From Acuticoccus yangtzensis (GTDB taxonomy: Bacteria; Pseudomonadota; Alphaproteobacteria; Rhizobiales; Amorphaceae), in the NCBI RefSeq assembly GCF_001927245.1, contig NZ_MJUX01000001.1:62001-126000 (forward strand): DNA of 64,000 bases, in the 5' to 3' direction. Both the position numbers and the translations under genes were made by a program. Below are positions 42,786 through 49,900 of this stretch, in pieces (position 1 is the first letter of the stretch; every line of letters begins with the position of its first letter). The notes under the pieces are model-generated. The model was not told the origin of the DNA and did not search any database. It saw nothing but the letters and a program-made list of their open reading frames with translations.

Positions 42786-45143
42786 TCAGTCGGTGCCTGT
42801 CGCTTCGCCGTCCGCACCATCGGCGCGGACCAGGCGCTGGTGGCGGCGGCGGTACATTTCCACCACCGTGCCGAGGGGCGGCGGAACAGGCTCTGCCATG
42901 GCGGCGAGGGCAGCGCCCATTCCCGCGGCGTCGCCCGCCCGGTCGGCCTCGGCGAGGCGGTCGACCGCCCTTCCCGCCGCCTGAAGCGCCGGTGACGGCG
43001 GATGGTTCGGCCCGCCGATGAGGCCGTAGACGTCGATCGCCTCGGTCTTGCCCTTCACGCGCACGCTGTCGACGAGGGCGAAGACGTAGCCGGCCGGGCG
43101 CGCCTGCTCGGCGGTGCGCGGGCCGACGAGGATCGGCATGCCGTAGCTCTTCGTCTGACTCTCCAGGCGGGAGGCGACGTTCACGTCGTCGCCGATCACC
43201 GAATAGTCGAACCGCTGGTTGGCGCCGAGATTGCCGACGCAGCAGATGCCGGTGTTGAGGCCGATGCCGATCGCGACCTCGGGGAAGATGCCCTTCGAGA
43301 CGAGGTTGAAGCGCTCGAGCGCCGTCATCATGGACAGCGCGGCTTCGCAGGCGTGGGCGGCGTGGGCGAAGTCGTTCAAAGGCGCGTTCCAGAAGGCCAT
43401 GATGGCGTCGCCCATGTATTTGTCGATGGTGCCGCGGTGCTCCAGGATCACCCCGGTCATCTCCGACAGGAAGGCGTTGAGGAAAGCGGTCAACTCCTCG
43501 GCGTCCATCGTCTCGCCGATGGTGGTGAAGCCTCTGATGTCGGTGAAGAGGATGGTCATGGGCCGCATCTCGCCGCCGAGGCGCAGGCGGGCGGGATCGT
43601 CGGCGAGGTTCTCCACCACGTCGGACGACACGTAGCGCGAGAAGGCGTGGCGGACCCACCGCCGGTCAGCGCGCTCACGCATCGCCACCCAGGCGGTGGT
43701 GGCAAACAGGGTGACGCCGCTCGCCAGCGAGGCGAAGGACGGGTCGAGGAAGAGCCCGGCACGGGTGAAGGCGAGGTAGCTCGCCGCGAAGACGAGGGCG
43801 ATGGTGGTGCAGCCGACGATCACCGCCGTCTGCGGCGAGAACAGGCCCGCGGCGACGGCAAAGAGCACGGCGAGGACGACGAAGACCATCATTTCCAGGC
43901 CGTCGGCCCAGTCCGGCCGTTTCAGCCACACCCCGGCGACGATCTGCTCGATCACCTGGGCGTTGATCTCGATACCGGGGATGGCGACGTCGAGCGGGGT
44001 GGCCTGGAGGTCGAAGAGGCCGGTGGCGGTGGCGCCGACGAGGATGATGCGCCCGGCCACCTCCTGCGGGTCCACGAGCCCTTCCAGCACCCACCAGGCG
44101 GGGATGTTCCGCTCGGCCCGCTGCGGGGTGTAGTGCATCAGAAGGCTGCCGTCGGCGGTGGTGGGCACGTCGAAGGCGCCGATGCGGATGGCGTTGACCC
44201 CGGTCGCGGCACCGAAGGCGGTCTGCCCGCTGGCGTTAGACGAGCGGATGACGAAGCTCTGGGCGTTTTGGGCGACGCGCAGCGCTTCGGCGGCGAGGCT
44301 CGGCACGTAGACGCCGTCGCCGGCGTGGAAGATCAGGGGCACGGCGCGCACCACCTGGTCGGTTCCCGGCATCCAGTTGAGCGCGCCGAGGCCGAGGGCG
44401 GCCTGGGCGAGCTGCGGCAACGGGCCGGACACCTTGCCGAAATTGGGCACGAAACGGTCCGGCAGGTCACCGGCGAAGGCGAAGCCGGCCTTGGGGTCGG
44501 AGAAGCCGCGGTCGGCGGCGGGCGCGTCCATCCCCGGCCCCGCCCCGGCTTCCAGCAGCACGCCGACGATGGACGGCGCGTTCTGCAGGGCGACGGCGAG
44601 CTGGTCGTCGCCGCGGGGAACGCCCTGGAGCGCGGCGGCGACGCGCTCGCGCTCCGGCCCCTCGGGCATCAGCCGGGCGATGTTTTCCGGCGACATGCGG
44701 TCCGGCTCGGAGAAGATGATGTCGAGCGCGATGGCGGCGGCGCCCATCTCGGTGAGCGCGGCGACCATCTCGGCGACGCGGGCGCGGGGCCATGGCCATT
44801 GGCCGACGCGGGCGAGCGACTCCTCGTCGATGGCGACGATGCGCACCGGGGCGCCGCGGTCGAAGGTGCGCGGGGCGAGGTGCTGGTACTCGTCATAGAC
44901 GATCGTACGTAAACGCTGCAGGGCTGAATAGTCTTCGCCGCGCACGACGAGGCCGGCCGCGACGAGGGCGAGCGTGATGAGGGTGAGCGGCGCGACGCGG
45001 CGCACGAGGCGGCGCCAGCGGCTGGGCCGTGGCCCCGCTCCGCCCGGCGGCTTGACCGGAGCCGGACGCGCCTGCGGCGGCGGGGCCGGCGCAGCGGGCC
45101 GTTCGGGCGAATGCGGCCCCGTGGGCTCGGCGATCCGGTCCAT
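42786..45143 (-). CDS. CHASE2-domain adenylate/guanylate cyclase
   Basis: A 785-residue inner-membrane receptor cyclase from ATG 45143. A Pro/Ala-rich cytosolic head (1-45) and helix (~48-67) precede a periplasmic CHASE2 domain (~75-400), then three further helices (~425-500) and a class III cyclase domain. Both metal aspartates (FTDIRGFT near residue 533 and DKYMGDAIMAFW) and the Asn-Arg pair (DDVNVASRLE near 654) are intact, so cAMP synthesis is expected. CHASE2 senses an unknown extracellular signal. It diverges from a possible secretion gene pair. Confidence 0.92.
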   Translation of the reverse strand: MDRIAEPTGPHSPERPAAPAPPPQARPAPVKPPGGAGPRPSRWRRLVRRVAPLTLITLALVAAGLVVRGEDYSALQRLRTIVYDEYQHLAPRTFDRGAPVRIVAIDEESLARVGQWPWPRARVAEMVAALTEMGAAAIALDIIFSEPDRMSPENIARLMPEGPERERVAAALQGVPRGDDQLAVALQNAPSIVGVLLEAGAGPGMDAPAADRGFSDPKAGFAFAGDLPDRFVPNFGKVSGPLPQLAQAALGLGALNWMPGTDQVVRAVPLIFHAGDGVYVPSLAAEALRVAQNAQSFVIRSSNASGQTAFGAATGVNAIRIGAFDVPTTADGSLLMHYTPQRAERNIPAWWVLEGLVDPQEVAGRIILVGATATGLFDLQATPLDVAIPGIEINAQVIEQIVAGVWLKRPDWADGLEMMVFVVLAVLFAVAAGLFSPQTAVIVGCTTIALVFAASYLAFTRAGLFLDPSFASLASGVTLFATTAWVAMRERADRRWVRHAFSRYVSSDVVENLADDPARLRLGGEMRPMTILFTDIRGFTTIGETMDAEELTAFLNAFLSEMTGVILEHRGTIDKYMGDAIMAFWNAPLNDFAHAAHACEAALSMMTALERFNLVSKGIFPEVAIGIGLNTGICCVGNLGANQRFDYSVIGDDVNVASRLESQTKSYGMPILVGPRTAEQARPAGYVFALVDSVRVKGKTEAIDVYGLIGGPNHPPSPALQAAGRAVDRLAEADRAGDAAGMGAALAAMAEPVPPPLGTVVEMYRRRHQRLVRADGADGEATGTD

Positions 45144-45309: not shown

Positions 45310-46683
45310 ATGGGGGTTGAGTGGGTTGCTTGCCGCGCCACATTTCGCGCGGGTTGGCTCGCCCTTATCCTTGCGGCATCGCTGATCACGTGCGGCGTTG
45401 CGGTGGCGCAGGAGGCGGCGCCGACCCCGCTGGAGCAGCGGCGCGACCAGCTCTTCATGGCGACGCTGAACGACCCCGACAATCTCGACGTCGCGTTCCA
45501 ATATGCCCTCGTCTCCGCGCAGCTCGGCGACTTCGAGGGGGCGATCGCCACGTTGGAGCGGATGCTCGTCTTCGCGCCCAACCTGCCGCGGGTGCAGTTG
45601 GAGCTCGGCGTTCTCTACTACCGCATCGGCGCGCGGGAGATGGCGCGCAGCTATCTGGAGGCGGTGGCCAACCAGCCCAATCTGCCGCCGGCGGTGCGCG
45701 AGCGGGTGAACACCTTCCTCGCCCAGCTCGACCGGCAGGACCGGCGCCTTCTCGTCACCGGCCAGGTGGTGGGCGGCTTGCAGGTGCAGACCAACGCCAA
45801 CTCCGCGCCGGGCGACGACGTGGTGGTGCTGAACGGCATCCCGGTGACCCTGAACCAGGACGGGCGGGCGAAGGGGGACTGGAACGTCTTCTCGATCGCG
45901 CGGGCGCATTTCTCGTATGATCTGCGCAATCAGGGCGATCTGATCGAAGCCGACATCACCAACTATAACAGCGTCTTCGGCGATCTGACGCAGCTCGACC
46001 TCAACATCATCGAGGCGCAGGTCGGGCCGACATTCGGGCTCGGCCGCGTCGGTCTCGACCAGGCGCGGGTGGGCGTTTACGGCATCCTCGGCGCCAATGC
46101 GCTGGGCCATTCCATCTACTCGACCACCTATGGTGCGGGGGCGCGGCTGCAGGCCTCGCTCGCCGAGACGCTGCTTTATGACGGGCGGGCCGAGGTGCGC
46201 GTCCTCAACTACGACAACTCCACCTATTATCCCACCGTGCGGCTGCAGACCGGCGAGGAATATCGCGCCGTGGGCCAGCTCACCAAGCTGTGGTCGCCGC
46301 GGTGGATCACCTCCGTCTCGGCCGGGTCGCGGGTGGTCGACGCGCGGACGGACTTCAAGAGCTATGCCGAGGTGACGGGGTCGGCCAACGCCACCTACCG
46401 CTTCATGGGCCCGTCCTACGGCCCGCTGGCGGAGGGGGTGCCGTGGGCGCTCTCGCTGACGGGCGGGCTCCTCTACCGCGACTATTGGGGCGCGGACCCG
46501 TTGGTGAACGCGGACGAGACGGAGGAGGACTTCGCGCTGTGGGCCGAGGCCGGCATCTCGGTGCCGATGGAGCAGAACATCGCCGTCTTCCTGACCGGGC
46601 AGATCCGCCATCAGGCATCGAACTACGACACCCGTGAGTACACCAATGCGATCTTCACGCTTGGTGTGTCCAAGAGGTTCTGA
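45310..46683 (+). CDS. TPR plus outer-membrane barrel protein, Slam/T11SS-like
   Basis: A 457-residue exported protein from ATG 45310 (GAGGG upstream). Signal peptide ~1-33 (AVAQ/EAAP). Residues ~45-135 hold TPR-like helices ([20 protein letters not shown], then [12 protein letters not shown]). Residues ~145-457 alternate in short amphipathic strands and end in ...LGVSKRF with a terminal Phe, as in outer-membrane barrels. TPR followed by a C-terminal barrel is the plan of Slam/DUF560 (type XI) secretors. The next gene, 4 bp downstream, encodes a secreted protein with a TbpB-like domain, as expected of a Slam cargo. Confidence 0.65.
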
Positions 46684-46687
46684 CCCC

Positions 46688-49600
46688 ATGGCCACGATGA
46701 CGAAACCGCGCCTCGCCCTTCTGGCCGCCACCGCGATCGGCACGGTGATGGGGGCCGGGCCATGGGGCGCAGCGCCCGCCGCCGCACAGTCGCGCATCGG
46801 CGTGACGACGGCGGTGAACCAGAGCACCGACGTGGAGCGCCGCGCCGCGCGGAAGACGGTGGTGATCGGCGACAACATCCTGTTCCAGGACCGGGTGATC
46901 ACGTCGAGCGACGGCCTGGCGCAGATCATGTTCGTGGACGGGTCGGCCTTCACCATCGCCGCCAACTCGCGGGTGGTGATCGATGAGTTCGTCTACAACC
47001 CGTCGTCCGGGGCGGGGTCGCTGGCGGCGGAGGTGACGCAAGGGGCACTGCGCTTCGTCGGCGGGCGGCTGTCGAAGAACGGCGGCCAGGTGCGGTTCGG
47101 CACGCCGGTGGGAACGCTGGGCGTGCGCGGCGGCATCCTGAACCTCGACCTCAACCCGCCGTGCCTGCCGGACGGACGGTGCCCCTCGGCCACCGCGTCC
47201 CTGGTGTTCGGCGACGATCTGATCCTGAACCCCGGCACGCCGGGCCAGCGGCGCATCTACGACACGGGCTATTCGTTCGTCTTCTTCGGTACCGGGGCGG
47301 GGGCGCAGGTGGAGACGCTGCCGACCTCGCGGCTGGACCAGTCCGTGTTGCAGCAGCGGTTGTCGGGCACGCCGGGCAAGAGCGGCGGCGCGGCGGTGGT
47401 ACCGACCGACGCCAACGTGGTGGCGAGCACGATCCCGGTGATCAACTCGGACCTGTCGCCGGTGACGGTGCTGCCCCGGCCGCGTCCGCAGATCGTGCGC
47501 TCGGCCTATGCGCCGGAGGATGGCGAGGTCGGCATCGGCACCGTCACCAACGAGATCCAGGTGGCGATCACCGACGAGGCGACGGCGGACGCCGGGGTCC
47601 CGCGCGAACGGCCTGACCCTGGTCCGGGCCCCGATCCCGGCCCCGATCCGGGTCCTGGGCCGGACCCCGGTCCCGAGCCGGAACCCGAACCCGAGCCGGA
47701 GCCGGAACCCGAGCCTGAACCCGAGCCGGAGCCTGAACCCGAACCGGAGCCCGAGCCGCAACCGGAGCGGTTGACGCTGCGTTTCGCACGCACGCCTGGC
47801 TTCCACCCCTATACGCCCGCCCCGCCGGAGGACGAGAACGTCGACTACGGCGCGCTGACGCTGTTCGCCGACTACCCGATCCGCGAATCCTTCCGATACG
47901 TGCGCAACGACGTGGGCGAGATCGTGCGCATCCGCACCTCCGGCGGCACGGTGCTGCCTTACACCGAGGCCGAGGGGCAGACGCGCTTCCGTCTTGAAAC
48001 CAACAGCTTCGGCTTCAACGAGACGGGTGAGGACGCGGACGGCGACGGGACGATCGACACCGCCCCGGTCAACGGCGTGATGATCCGCGGTGCGGACGAC
48101 TTCGTGCTCTACTACATGCAGCCGGACGGCCCGCGCGGCGCGTTCCAGCAGGTGTTGTTCACCGGCTATGGCGGCGTCGCCACCCCGGCGGAGGTGTTCT
48201 TCCCCGAGCGGGGCACGCGCGAAGGCGTGGTGCGCACCTATCAGGTGGGCGACAATCCGCAGTGGGTGCGTCAAGGGCTGAACACGGAGCTTCCCTTCCT
48301 CAACCCGCTTGTCGCGCGCGAGTTCGGCCGTGCCCTGCTGTCGGCGTCCACCACGGACCTGCTGATGGTCGATTCCGACAACTTCGTCGACGAACCGGCG
48401 ACGTTGCAGGCCGGCCTCGTGCTGCGCGGCGAAGGGGCGCTGCAGCGCTCGGCCATCTCGGTCGGCGTCGGCTTCGTCGAGGAGTCCTACGGCAGCGACG
48501 AGCCCGGCGCCAACGTCGTCGGCAGCCGCCGCGGCACCTACCGGGCGCAGTCCAACTACGGCGCCGCGGCGATGACCGGCTCCCTCTCCAGCGCCGACTT
48601 CCTGATCGACGGTGAGAAGAAGACGGTCTACGGCCGCAACGGTCAGACCTTCGCCATCGTGCCGGCCGGCATCTCCGCCACGGACGGCTATAACGACGAC
48701 ACCGCCAATTCACCGCGCGAGACGAAGGTCGGCTTCGTCGACGTTCAGCCGGAAAGCGGCGGGATCTTGAACCCCGATACGGAGCTGACGAGCGGCACCG
48801 GCGTCCTTGCCACCCTGCAGCGCGAAACCCCGGTGACCGCGTTCGACCGCGTCGTCGGGCAGTTCGAGGGATTTGCGGCGGGCATGCTGGAGTCGGACGG
48901 CGGCGGCAGTCCGATCGTGATGCGCTCGACCCGCACCGGCCATTTCGCCATGCAGACCCTGGTCCAGCACTCCGGCGTCGGCGGTGTGGCGATCCTCACC
49001 GACGTGGAGAATTCCGGCGACATCACGCTGCTGCAGGCGGCCTTCGGCGTCGGCACGCGCGATCTGACCGAGGATCCTTCGGTCACCGGCCAGACCGAGG
49101 CGGCGATCGAAATCGTCACAGGTTCGGCCGGAACCGGCACCTATGTCGATCACGACACTTACGCTGCGATCGAGGCGGGCTATGCGGATCGCCCCGGCAG
49201 CCCCGACACCAAGCTCGTCGGCACCACCGGTGGGGTGATGCAGCAGGTCGAGGGGGTGAACCCGGCGACCTACGTTGTGCCGTCCACCTTGGTGCCGAAC
49301 AGCGAGATCTTCGAGAACGCTGGCGTGACGGAGTGCGAGTGCGCCTTCCTGGAATGGGGCTGGTGGGGCACGCAGACCGAGGTGCGAACGGCCGACGGCG
49401 GAACGCGGCGCGATTTCGTCCACCTCGGCACCTGGGCCGCGGGCGACGTGACGCGCCAGGTGGACATGCCGACGAGCGGGTCGGCGACCTATAACGGTCA
49501 TGCGGTCGGCAGTGTGTCCAACACCAACGCGCTCGGCACCACGCAATATGTGGCCGCGGGCGAGATGGAGATGAACTTCGACTTCGGCGAGCGCACCGGC

Positions 49601-49900
49601 CGGCTGGACATCCGCAACTTCGACGGCCGTGACTTCGGCGGAACCATCTATTCCGACGACGCGCCGGACGCGCTGAACCAGTTCAGCGGCTATGTGACGG
49701 GCGGCGAGCTGATCGGCGGGGAGATCCCCTCCATCAGCGGCGCGGCGACGGGGGCCTTCGTCGACGGTCCGCAGATGCGGGCACAGGGCGTGATCGGCTC
49801 GTTCAACGCGGCCGAGGCGAACTGGCGGGCGACCGGCACCTTCGTCGGCGAGCGCGACCTCGGCGATATCGGCGTGAATCTGAAGGCGGGGCGGCGCTAG
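46688..49900 (+). CDS. Large secreted FecR-domain protein with EP-repeat linker and TbpB-like C-terminus
   Basis: A 1070-residue exported protein from ATG 46688. Signal peptide ~1-34 with no lipobox cysteine, so it is not a lipoprotein. A FecR domain (~50-150) shows [25 protein letters not shown] and GTLGVRGG. Residues ~309-361 are a PDPG/EP repeat, a stiff periplasmic or surface linker. A long beta-rich middle follows, and residues ~890-1065 resemble the TbpB C-terminal barrel ([14 protein letters not shown], then [19 protein letters not shown]). It is directly downstream of the Slam-like gene; I infer it is its cargo. FecR here is free-standing, not tied to a TonB receptor or ECF sigma factor. 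Confidence 0.75.
47612..47770 (+). repeat. In-frame Pro-Glu/Pro-Asp-Gly coding repeat
   Basis: This part of the FecR protein first encodes PDPGPG-type units, then about 15 Pro-Glu pairs. Codons alternate among synonymous forms (GAACCC, GAGCCG, GAGCCT), so the protein repeat is conserved beyond simple DNA slippage. Confidence 0.9.

Follow-up and report, generated by a model that had tools for sequence, protein, structure and literature searches.

The window, as we call the whole stretch of 64,000 nucleotides analysed here, comes from Acuticoccus yangtzensis (contig NZ_MJUX01000001.1, positions 62,001 to 126,000) and holds a small group of genes that may work together across the cell envelope. 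Gene 1 encodes a TPR protein with a C-terminal barrel. It is followed on the same strand, after a gap of 4 bp (stop at 46683, start at 46688), by gene 2, whose product begins with a FecR domain and ends in a barrel resembling that of TbpB. A first-pass annotation, made from the sequence alone, had placed both genes correctly, including the gap and the length of the second protein, and had described them as a Slam-like secretor of the type 11 secretion system (T11SS) and its cargo. A third gene, absent from that annotation, lies divergently upstream and encodes an adenylate cyclase with a CHASE2 domain. The reading we prefer, with a probability of roughly 55%, is a trans-envelope sensor: a pore of the Slam family would expose the C-terminal region of gene 2 at the surface, and the FecR domain, located in the periplasm, would control the cyclase. 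The features of the locus are collected in the table.

Table. Features of the locus, in window positions, with the basis of each assignment.
Feature	Position	Strand	Basis or remark
CHASE2 domain and class III adenylate/guanylate cyclase, divergent neighbour, predicted partner	42786-45143	-	profile scan
Intergenic stretch separating gene 1 from the cyclase	45144-45309		
Gene 1, secreted TPR protein with C-terminal barrel, predicted member of a FecR-associated clade of the Slam/T11SS superfamily	45310-46683	+	457 residues
Gene 1 signal peptide, ending ...GVAVA	45310-45408	+	by eye
Gene 1 TPR helices, residues 40-143	45427-45738	+	Pfam and AlphaFold model
Gene 1 14-strand beta barrel (predicted), residues 147-457	45748-46680	+	AlphaFold, Foldseek, barrel-only hhalign
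Gene 2, FecR, linker, beta region and TbpB-like barrel, predicted cargo/sensor	46688-49900	+	1070 residues
Gene 2 signal peptide, ending ...APAAA(Q), no lipobox seen	46688-46786	+	by eye
FecR domain PF04773, residues 68-152	46889-47143	+	Pfam, 25.4 bits (cut-off 24)
Pro/Glu-rich linker, residues 309-360, sequence not conserved	47612-47767	+	comparison with orthologues
Beta-rich middle region, residues 366-869, without Pfam or NCBIfam match	47783-49294	+	AlphaFold model
CxC ... WGWWG ... HLGTW element upstream of the barrel, residues 870-931	49295-49480	+	alignment
Eight-stranded TbpB_B_D-like barrel (predicted), residues 932-1056	49481-49855	+	Pfam, AlphaFold, Foldseek

The AlphaFold model of gene 1, built on an alignment of 16 sequences, has a mean pLDDT (predicted local distance difference test score) of 83.8. 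It consists of helices at residues 40-143, where Pfam places TPR repeats (54-128), and then of 14 long beta strands that occupy residues 147-456. Slam barrels have 14 strands. Searched against the PDB with Foldseek, the model matched the TPR-barrel exporters BcsC and PelB together with porins such as OmpG and CymA; no Slam structure was among the first 50 matches. The relationship to Slam is drawn from profile comparison. The gene 1 family (16 sequences) aligned with 12 classical Slams over 381 columns with an hhalign probability of 99.95% (E 1.3e-38), the 12 being those of 30 PF04575 loci that gave a clean scripted frame and did not score weakly. With the barrels alone the probability was 99.6% and the score 174. 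For comparison, a different TPR barrel from a sister genus scored 36 against Slam (53%) and 24 against the gene 1 family, and nine BBP2_2 barrels scored 62 against Slam (94%) and 44 or 28, depending on direction, against the gene 1 family. Part of the signal is generic and common to barrels; the gene 1 family is still far closer to Slam than both controls are. In a tree of 89 proteins, which excluded five near-copies of the seed and frames of the outer-membrane protein (OMP) shorter than 380 residues, the 76 FecR-type proteins were set apart from the 13 Slam-type ones (Shimodaira-Hasegawa-like approximate likelihood ratio 97, by a quick method and with some long branches). Judged by profile and model, gene 1 is a distant, full-length relative of Slam within the T11SS superfamily, and the earlier description of it as Slam-like is borne out.

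The C-terminus of gene 2 was likewise said to resemble the TbpB barrel, and several lines of comparison agree. The AlphaFold model (17 sequences) has a mean pLDDT of only 69.5 overall; within residues 861-1060 the means of 10-residue blocks lie at 82-95, with one block at 70, and eight strands are seen at residues 932-1056. Foldseek returned TbpB and LbpB at ranks 1-22, then NHBA, fHbp and the hemophilin HphA through rank 31, with the FecR-type cell-surface-signalling domain of PupR at rank 26 (E 1.1e-4). The list gives no aligned range, so the part of the model matched is unspecified; we infer that the PupR match falls on the FecR region. The TbpB alignments are long and loose (root-mean-square deviation about 20 Å, TM-score, a measure of fold similarity, 0.12-0.15 on the query). 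For the one-barrel NHBA entries the TM-score is 0.66-0.69 when taken on their own length. When the C-terminal domain was compared by hhalign with 19 TbpB_B_D stretches (from 30 PF01298 loci, at least two of the 19 badly framed), the probability was 89%, against 1.7% for the middle region and 0.06% for the FecR region as controls. A sequence-profile search of the PDB was led by fHbp, with a best E of 0.041 and no match significant alone. The NCBIfam model slam_lipo (NF041636) touches gene 2 with E 9e-8, at 32.5 bits well under its cut-off of 80, and the C-termini of five pairs (the window and loci L027-L030) with E 1.9e-7 to 3.7e-5, all under the curated cut-off; the sixth protein scanned, a paralogue from the same genome (L024), had no match. 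With Pfam at E 0.1, 15 tails were touched by FHBP_C in eight cases and by TbpB_B_D in five. The tails of two paralogues, taken alone, gave 1.4% to TbpB_B_D and 98% to the gene 2 family. Taken together, the model and the profiles suggest that gene 2 ends in a barrel resembling the eight-stranded TbpB type, a known fold of Slam/T11SS cargo.

Ahead of this barrel stands a conserved element: in the stretch 49289-49480 (residues 868-931) the CxC and WG[WY]WG ... HLG.W motifs are invariant in all 15 aligned relatives of gene 2, with the paralogues L024 and L026 left out. It is possibly a disulphide or a handle. The first-pass annotation had described the linker behind the FecR domain as an EP-repeat linker, and it is indeed rich in Pro and Glu here, but as a conserved feature it did not survive comparison: at the same position the orthologues have poly-Pro, a DPV/DPI repeat, or nothing. 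The EP linker is a lineage trait, and the idea of a conserved rod spanning the pore or the periplasm was rejected on these grounds. The lack of a lipobox in gene 2, as judged by eye, agrees with what had been claimed.

The divergent gene matches CHASE2 with E 5e-56 and a class III cyclase domain with E 4e-25. Its presence changes how the FecR domain is viewed. The first-pass annotation spoke of a free FecR on a secretion cargo and took sigma-factor signalling as the reference for it. A FecR domain is there, but it is not free, because it lies next to a CHASE2 cyclase and because FecR-CHASE2 partnerships are known (PMC5498481, PMC9239204, and the NsrA-CyaK pair); given these partnerships, sigma-factor signalling is an unlikely frame of reference. 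A cAMP-receptor-like box common to the cyclase-gene 1 region of seven loci was not found; L029 has one TGTT-N8-AACA and L035 one GTT-N8-AAC. Among the seven neighbouring genes scanned there was no metal, haem or TonB gene. Elsewhere in the same genome (C25:126004-128539) a further FecR and a further CHASE2 domain are encoded on opposite strands with about 1.5 kb between them.

Since genes 1 and 2 are conserved as neighbours across genera, their pairing goes beyond chance, in line with the annotation's description of them as a pair. They stand side by side in six of eight genomes of the genus, the other two having no match to either gene, and the cyclase adjoins the pair in five of these six, while the remaining neighbours vary. 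A profile scan of a contig collection gave 12 loci, from Rhodobacteraceae, Phaeobacter, Stappia, Aureimonas, Jiella and metagenome-assembled genomes, two of them apparently identical to contigs of the genomes G005 and G007. In 11 of the 12, gene 1 lies immediately upstream, the twelfth locus ending at a contig edge, and the cyclase is adjacent in six. The pair recurs in both Rhodobacterales and Hyphomicrobiales. On plasmid p1 of Shinella sp. H4-D48 and plasmid pAMI5 of Paracoccus aminophilus, the OMP, the FecR protein and the cyclase follow one another on one strand, and both FecR proteins have weak C-terminal matches to FHBP_C and TbpB_B_D. Phaeobacter, too, has all three genes. By annotation, the Shinella operon (L236:10770-14553) is followed by NHLP bacteriocin export genes. 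Stappia loci have their own additions: an extra secreted FecR-only protein before the pair (L037:3622-6256, also L038, L039 and L044, with no cyclase match in the stretch) and, in the two that were read for it (L037 and L039), a protein before the pair that by eye looks like a 5'-nucleotidase.

Two variants of the arrangement are worth describing. In the sister genus (L031:3762-8401, L032:4310-9081), the FecR protein has a Pro-rich tail at its end and no TbpB-like domain; divergent from its gene are those of a CHASE2 cyclase and of a TPR protein whose barrel is not of the Slam kind. In the A. yangtzensis genome itself, a diverged pair of OMP and FecR-plus-tail protein (640 residues, without linker) is found at L024:5642-17589 (C12, about 1255640-1267590). 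A Crp-type HTH/TPR-S regulator stands on one side of it; on the other comes a TIR-domain protein and then a large protein that by eye resembles a STAND-type NTPase. Models of defence systems gave weak matches only at this locus. Genome G003 (L026) has genes of similar size in the same order.

A survey of the class put numbers on these associations. The OMP family is present in 83 of 385 alphaproteobacterial genomes, and 80 regions were compared: 76 of the 97 matches listed, plus four classical Slam loci. Sorted by OMP sequence profile alone, with a seed alignment that came partly from known pairs, they comprise 67 FecR-type and 13 Slam-type proteins. A FecR frame lies within 3 kb of 50 of the 67 and of none of the 13; it is downstream on the same strand in 46 of the 67. 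A CHASE2 cyclase lies within 8 kb of 28 of the 67, again against 0/13, and a TbpB-like neighbour was found at nine of the 13 Slam-type loci. The neighbour counts are lower bounds, because the FecR profile came from this family only and some regions stop at contig ends. Seen from the other side, a FecR start lies within 6 kb of 38 of 108 CHASE2 matches in 96 genomes of the class. The TbpB-like tail was recognised at 18 of the 67 loci at first pass and in 22 of 53 FecR frames with an iterated profile, for which one decoy fell below E 0.1 (at 0.019). That all FecR partners carry such a barrel is therefore ruled out, the other tails having no hhalign support. The tail occurs on several branches of the tree, including long ones at the clade's unresolved base, so repeated gain would be no more likely than loss or replacement.

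What the profiles and models bring together at this locus is, then, a predicted Slam-family pore, a FecR domain, a TbpB-like barrel and a CHASE2 cyclase in conserved adjacency. In the sensor that we prefer, gene 1 would be an outer-membrane pore with gene 2 as its dedicated substrate; the pairing is observed, the transport proposed. By way of gene 1 the TbpB-like barrel and the beta region before it would come to be displayed on the cell surface; the FecR domain at the N-terminus would stay in, or report to, the periplasm. There it may contact and control the CHASE2 domain of the neighbouring cyclase, with cAMP as the output; we propose this step because of the gene linkage and because of the precedent of NsrA-CyaK. 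The module would be a split form of the NsrA-CyaK arrangement, in which a secretion-type pore and an exported arm take the place of the barrel. A bolder version, which we put forward tentatively and at clearly less than even odds, is that export of the FecR-tethered TbpB-like arm through the Slam-type pore is itself the sensing act: binding of a ligand at the surface, or the state of translocation, would pull on or release FecR and in this way switch the CHASE2 adenylate cyclase.

A number of observations weigh against this sensor. Export of gene 2 by gene 1 and signalling from FecR to cAMP are both inferred. The first-pass annotation expected a PF04575/DUF560 barrel and a TbpB_B_D fold, and the modelled folds agree with this, but strict Pfam membership fails on both counts. 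PF01298 (TbpB_B_D) touches gene 2 at residues 927-1053 with E 0.0013 and 23.1 bits, under its cut-off of 26. PF04575, which has matches in 43 of 249 genomes of the phylum, has none anywhere in the A. yangtzensis genome, gene 1 included; the Paracoccus relative reaches 14.9 bits against a cut-off of 22. The barrels of the paralogues L024 and L026 alone score 55 (94%) against Slam and 180 against the gene 1 family, so that they fit Slam no better than the BBP2_2 barrels do. In the survey, no FecR frame lies within 3 kb of 17 of the 67 FecR-type OMPs; in 16 of these that were inspected, the cyclase is directly downstream in two and the rest have mostly unrelated genes. Likewise, 39 of the 67 have no CHASE2 cyclase within 8 kb. 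The TbpB-like tail is not universal in the system, since 31 of the 53 FecR frames in the 80 regions, one of them cut by a contig end, do not have it. In the remaining tails hhalign found no TbpB-like domain; some are short, and others could not be assigned. The tail is also uncommon, as its profile matched one of 299 genomes in an even sample of the phylum, that of A. yangtzensis itself. Finally, SMc02177, a FecR protein near the CHASE2 cyclase gene cyaD1 of Sinorhizobium meliloti, is reported to be dispensable for the perception of the plant signal (PMC5498481).

A first alternative is an ordinary T11SS pair: gene 2 would be an adhesin or binding protein that gene 1 secretes in full, FecR a module for structure or retention, and the cyclase no more than a regulatory neighbour. 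We regard this as a serious but minority possibility. The homology of gene 1 to Slam and the cargo fold of gene 2 speak for it, unlipidated T11SS cargo is known (PMC8406197), and the pair occurs without a cyclase match in the stretches read of Stappia loci, another of the points against the sensor, and of G007 and L043. The FecR profile also matches part of an 'Antifreeze protein' chain, 5ix9 (E 3.6e-6), which we take to be the membrane-anchoring end of a Marinomonas adhesin. This match is a lead only; in the open-licence literature no paper on 5IX9 or on a 'retention module' with FecR was found. An ordinary pair explains less well why FecR is the constant part of the neighbouring protein and the TbpB-like tail the variable one, why the linkage of FecR to CHASE2 extends well past this family, and why neither FecR nor a CHASE2 cyclase is a neighbour at any of the 13 Slam-type loci. 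In a second alternative nothing is secreted: gene 1 would be a receptor barrel, and gene 2, remaining periplasmic, would use its TbpB-like barrel to dock there and would pass the binding of a ligand on to CHASE2. FecR partners without an exported-type tail still adjoin OMPs of the clade, in the sister genus a tailless FecR and linker stand beside a CHASE2 cyclase and another kind of TPR barrel, and NsrA itself was described as a receptor barrel (PMC7529298). We consider this rather improbable, given that the C-terminal domain of gene 2 resembles those translocated by Slam and that gene 1 matches Slam over its whole length.

Classical FecI-FecR-FecA signalling through a sigma factor is the least probable of the alternatives by far. 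It has the Foldseek match to PupR in its favour, as well as a Lysobacter cluster of sigma factor, separate FecR regulator, TbpB homologue and Slam gene (PMC11233812). Gene 2, however, starts with what looks like a cleavable signal peptide, judged by eye, and has no anti-sigma family by Pfam, no cytoplasmic anti-sigma region and no transmembrane helix before FecR; none of the seven neighbouring genes scanned encodes a sigma factor or a TonB receptor. A classical anti-sigma role for gene 2 itself was rejected for these reasons.

On the bolder version, a branch of the T11SS family would have become one half, in the outer membrane, of a pathway based on a second messenger; information would pass in a single direction, from the surface to the cytoplasm, and would need no TonB, sigma factor or histidine kinase. 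If the trans-envelope sensor is correct, it would join type 11 secretion, studied as an export route of host-binding surface proteins, to CHASE2 cAMP signalling, a link not found in the literature searched. The extracellular inputs of CHASE2 domains are mostly unknown, and many CHASE2 cyclases could have a surface input of this kind. A clade of the Slam family missed by the PF04575 model would also be given a partner. The gene set spans marine and soil bacteria, including Stappia, Phaeobacter, Shinella and Paracoccus. In the main texts of the open-licence papers searched, none was found that joins FecR or CHASE2 with DUF560, those listed for FecR-domain proteins together with Slam or T11SS lacked the former, and the available main text of a survey of T11SS cargo (PMC12282271) does not mention FecR, alphaproteobacteria or a cyclase. 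The secretion family and the signalling pair are each known; their union was not found in print in these papers.

Compared with the Slam/T11SS proteins (PF04575, DUF560, SlipAM), gene 1 has the same N-terminal TPR and barrel, with profile homology over its full length, and a gene for TbpB-like cargo next to it. It differs in falling under the Pfam cut-off, in its separate clade, and in having a FecR partner and often a CHASE2 cyclase. Gene 2 shares with known cargo (TbpB, NHBA, fHbp and the hemophilins HrpC/HphA) the C-terminal eight-stranded barrel and the signal peptide, and with the hemophilins, going by the lipobox search by eye, the lack of lipidation, T11SS-1B being a system that secretes unlipidated cargo (PMC8406197); the N-terminal FecR domain and the CxC-WGWWG-HLGTW element set it apart. 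Slam1 has been reconstituted as the TbpB translocon (PMC9090332), and both Pro-rich N-terminal repeats in cargo and T11SS loci with cargo lipoproteins in Rhodobacteraceae have been described (PMC12282271). With FecR/PupR anti-sigma regulators gene 2 has the FecR domain in common (Pfam, Foldseek), but it carries a signal peptide and has neither their cytoplasmic anti-sigma domain nor a transmembrane anchor. FecR and Slam genes are already known as neighbours under sigma-factor control, because the iron-uptake cluster orf4990-orf4994 of Lysobacter sp. 3655 combines a FecR regulator, a sigma factor, a TonB transporter, a TbpB homologue and a Slam gene (PMC11233812). It resembles the window locus in bringing FecR, TbpB homologue and Slam together; its FecR is a separate protein, with neither a fusion nor a cyclase mentioned in the available text, whereas gene 2 joins FecR to a TbpB-like barrel and has a cyclase gene nearby.

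On the signalling side, FecR genes near CHASE2 cyclases, as in the window, are known from the SMc02177-CyaD1 case, where the FecR gene adjoins smc02178 (PMC5498481), and from gene clusters of Campylobacterota, which include a TPR gene as well (PMC9239204); in Burkholderia, FecR stands beside a CHASE2 histidine kinase (PMC5192318). The closest parallel is NsrA-CyaK of S. meliloti, where perceiving a proteinaceous signal takes both NsrA, an outer-membrane receptor, and CyaK, a CHASE2 cyclase (PMC7529298, PMC13001267), and the C-terminal barrel of NsrA covers amino acids 600-1200 (PMC7529298). By Pfam, NsrA has FecR at residues 66-160 together with TPR, its gene lies directly upstream of cyaK, and at E 0.1 neither a TbpB-like domain nor a Slam-type barrel is seen in it. 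The original study reportedly proposed trans-membrane signalling from the domain layout of NsrA. There as at the window locus, FecR, TPR and outer-membrane barrel are encoded beside a CHASE2 adenylate cyclase; NsrA holds them in one polypeptide of 1190 amino acids, and the window locus splits them over two proteins.

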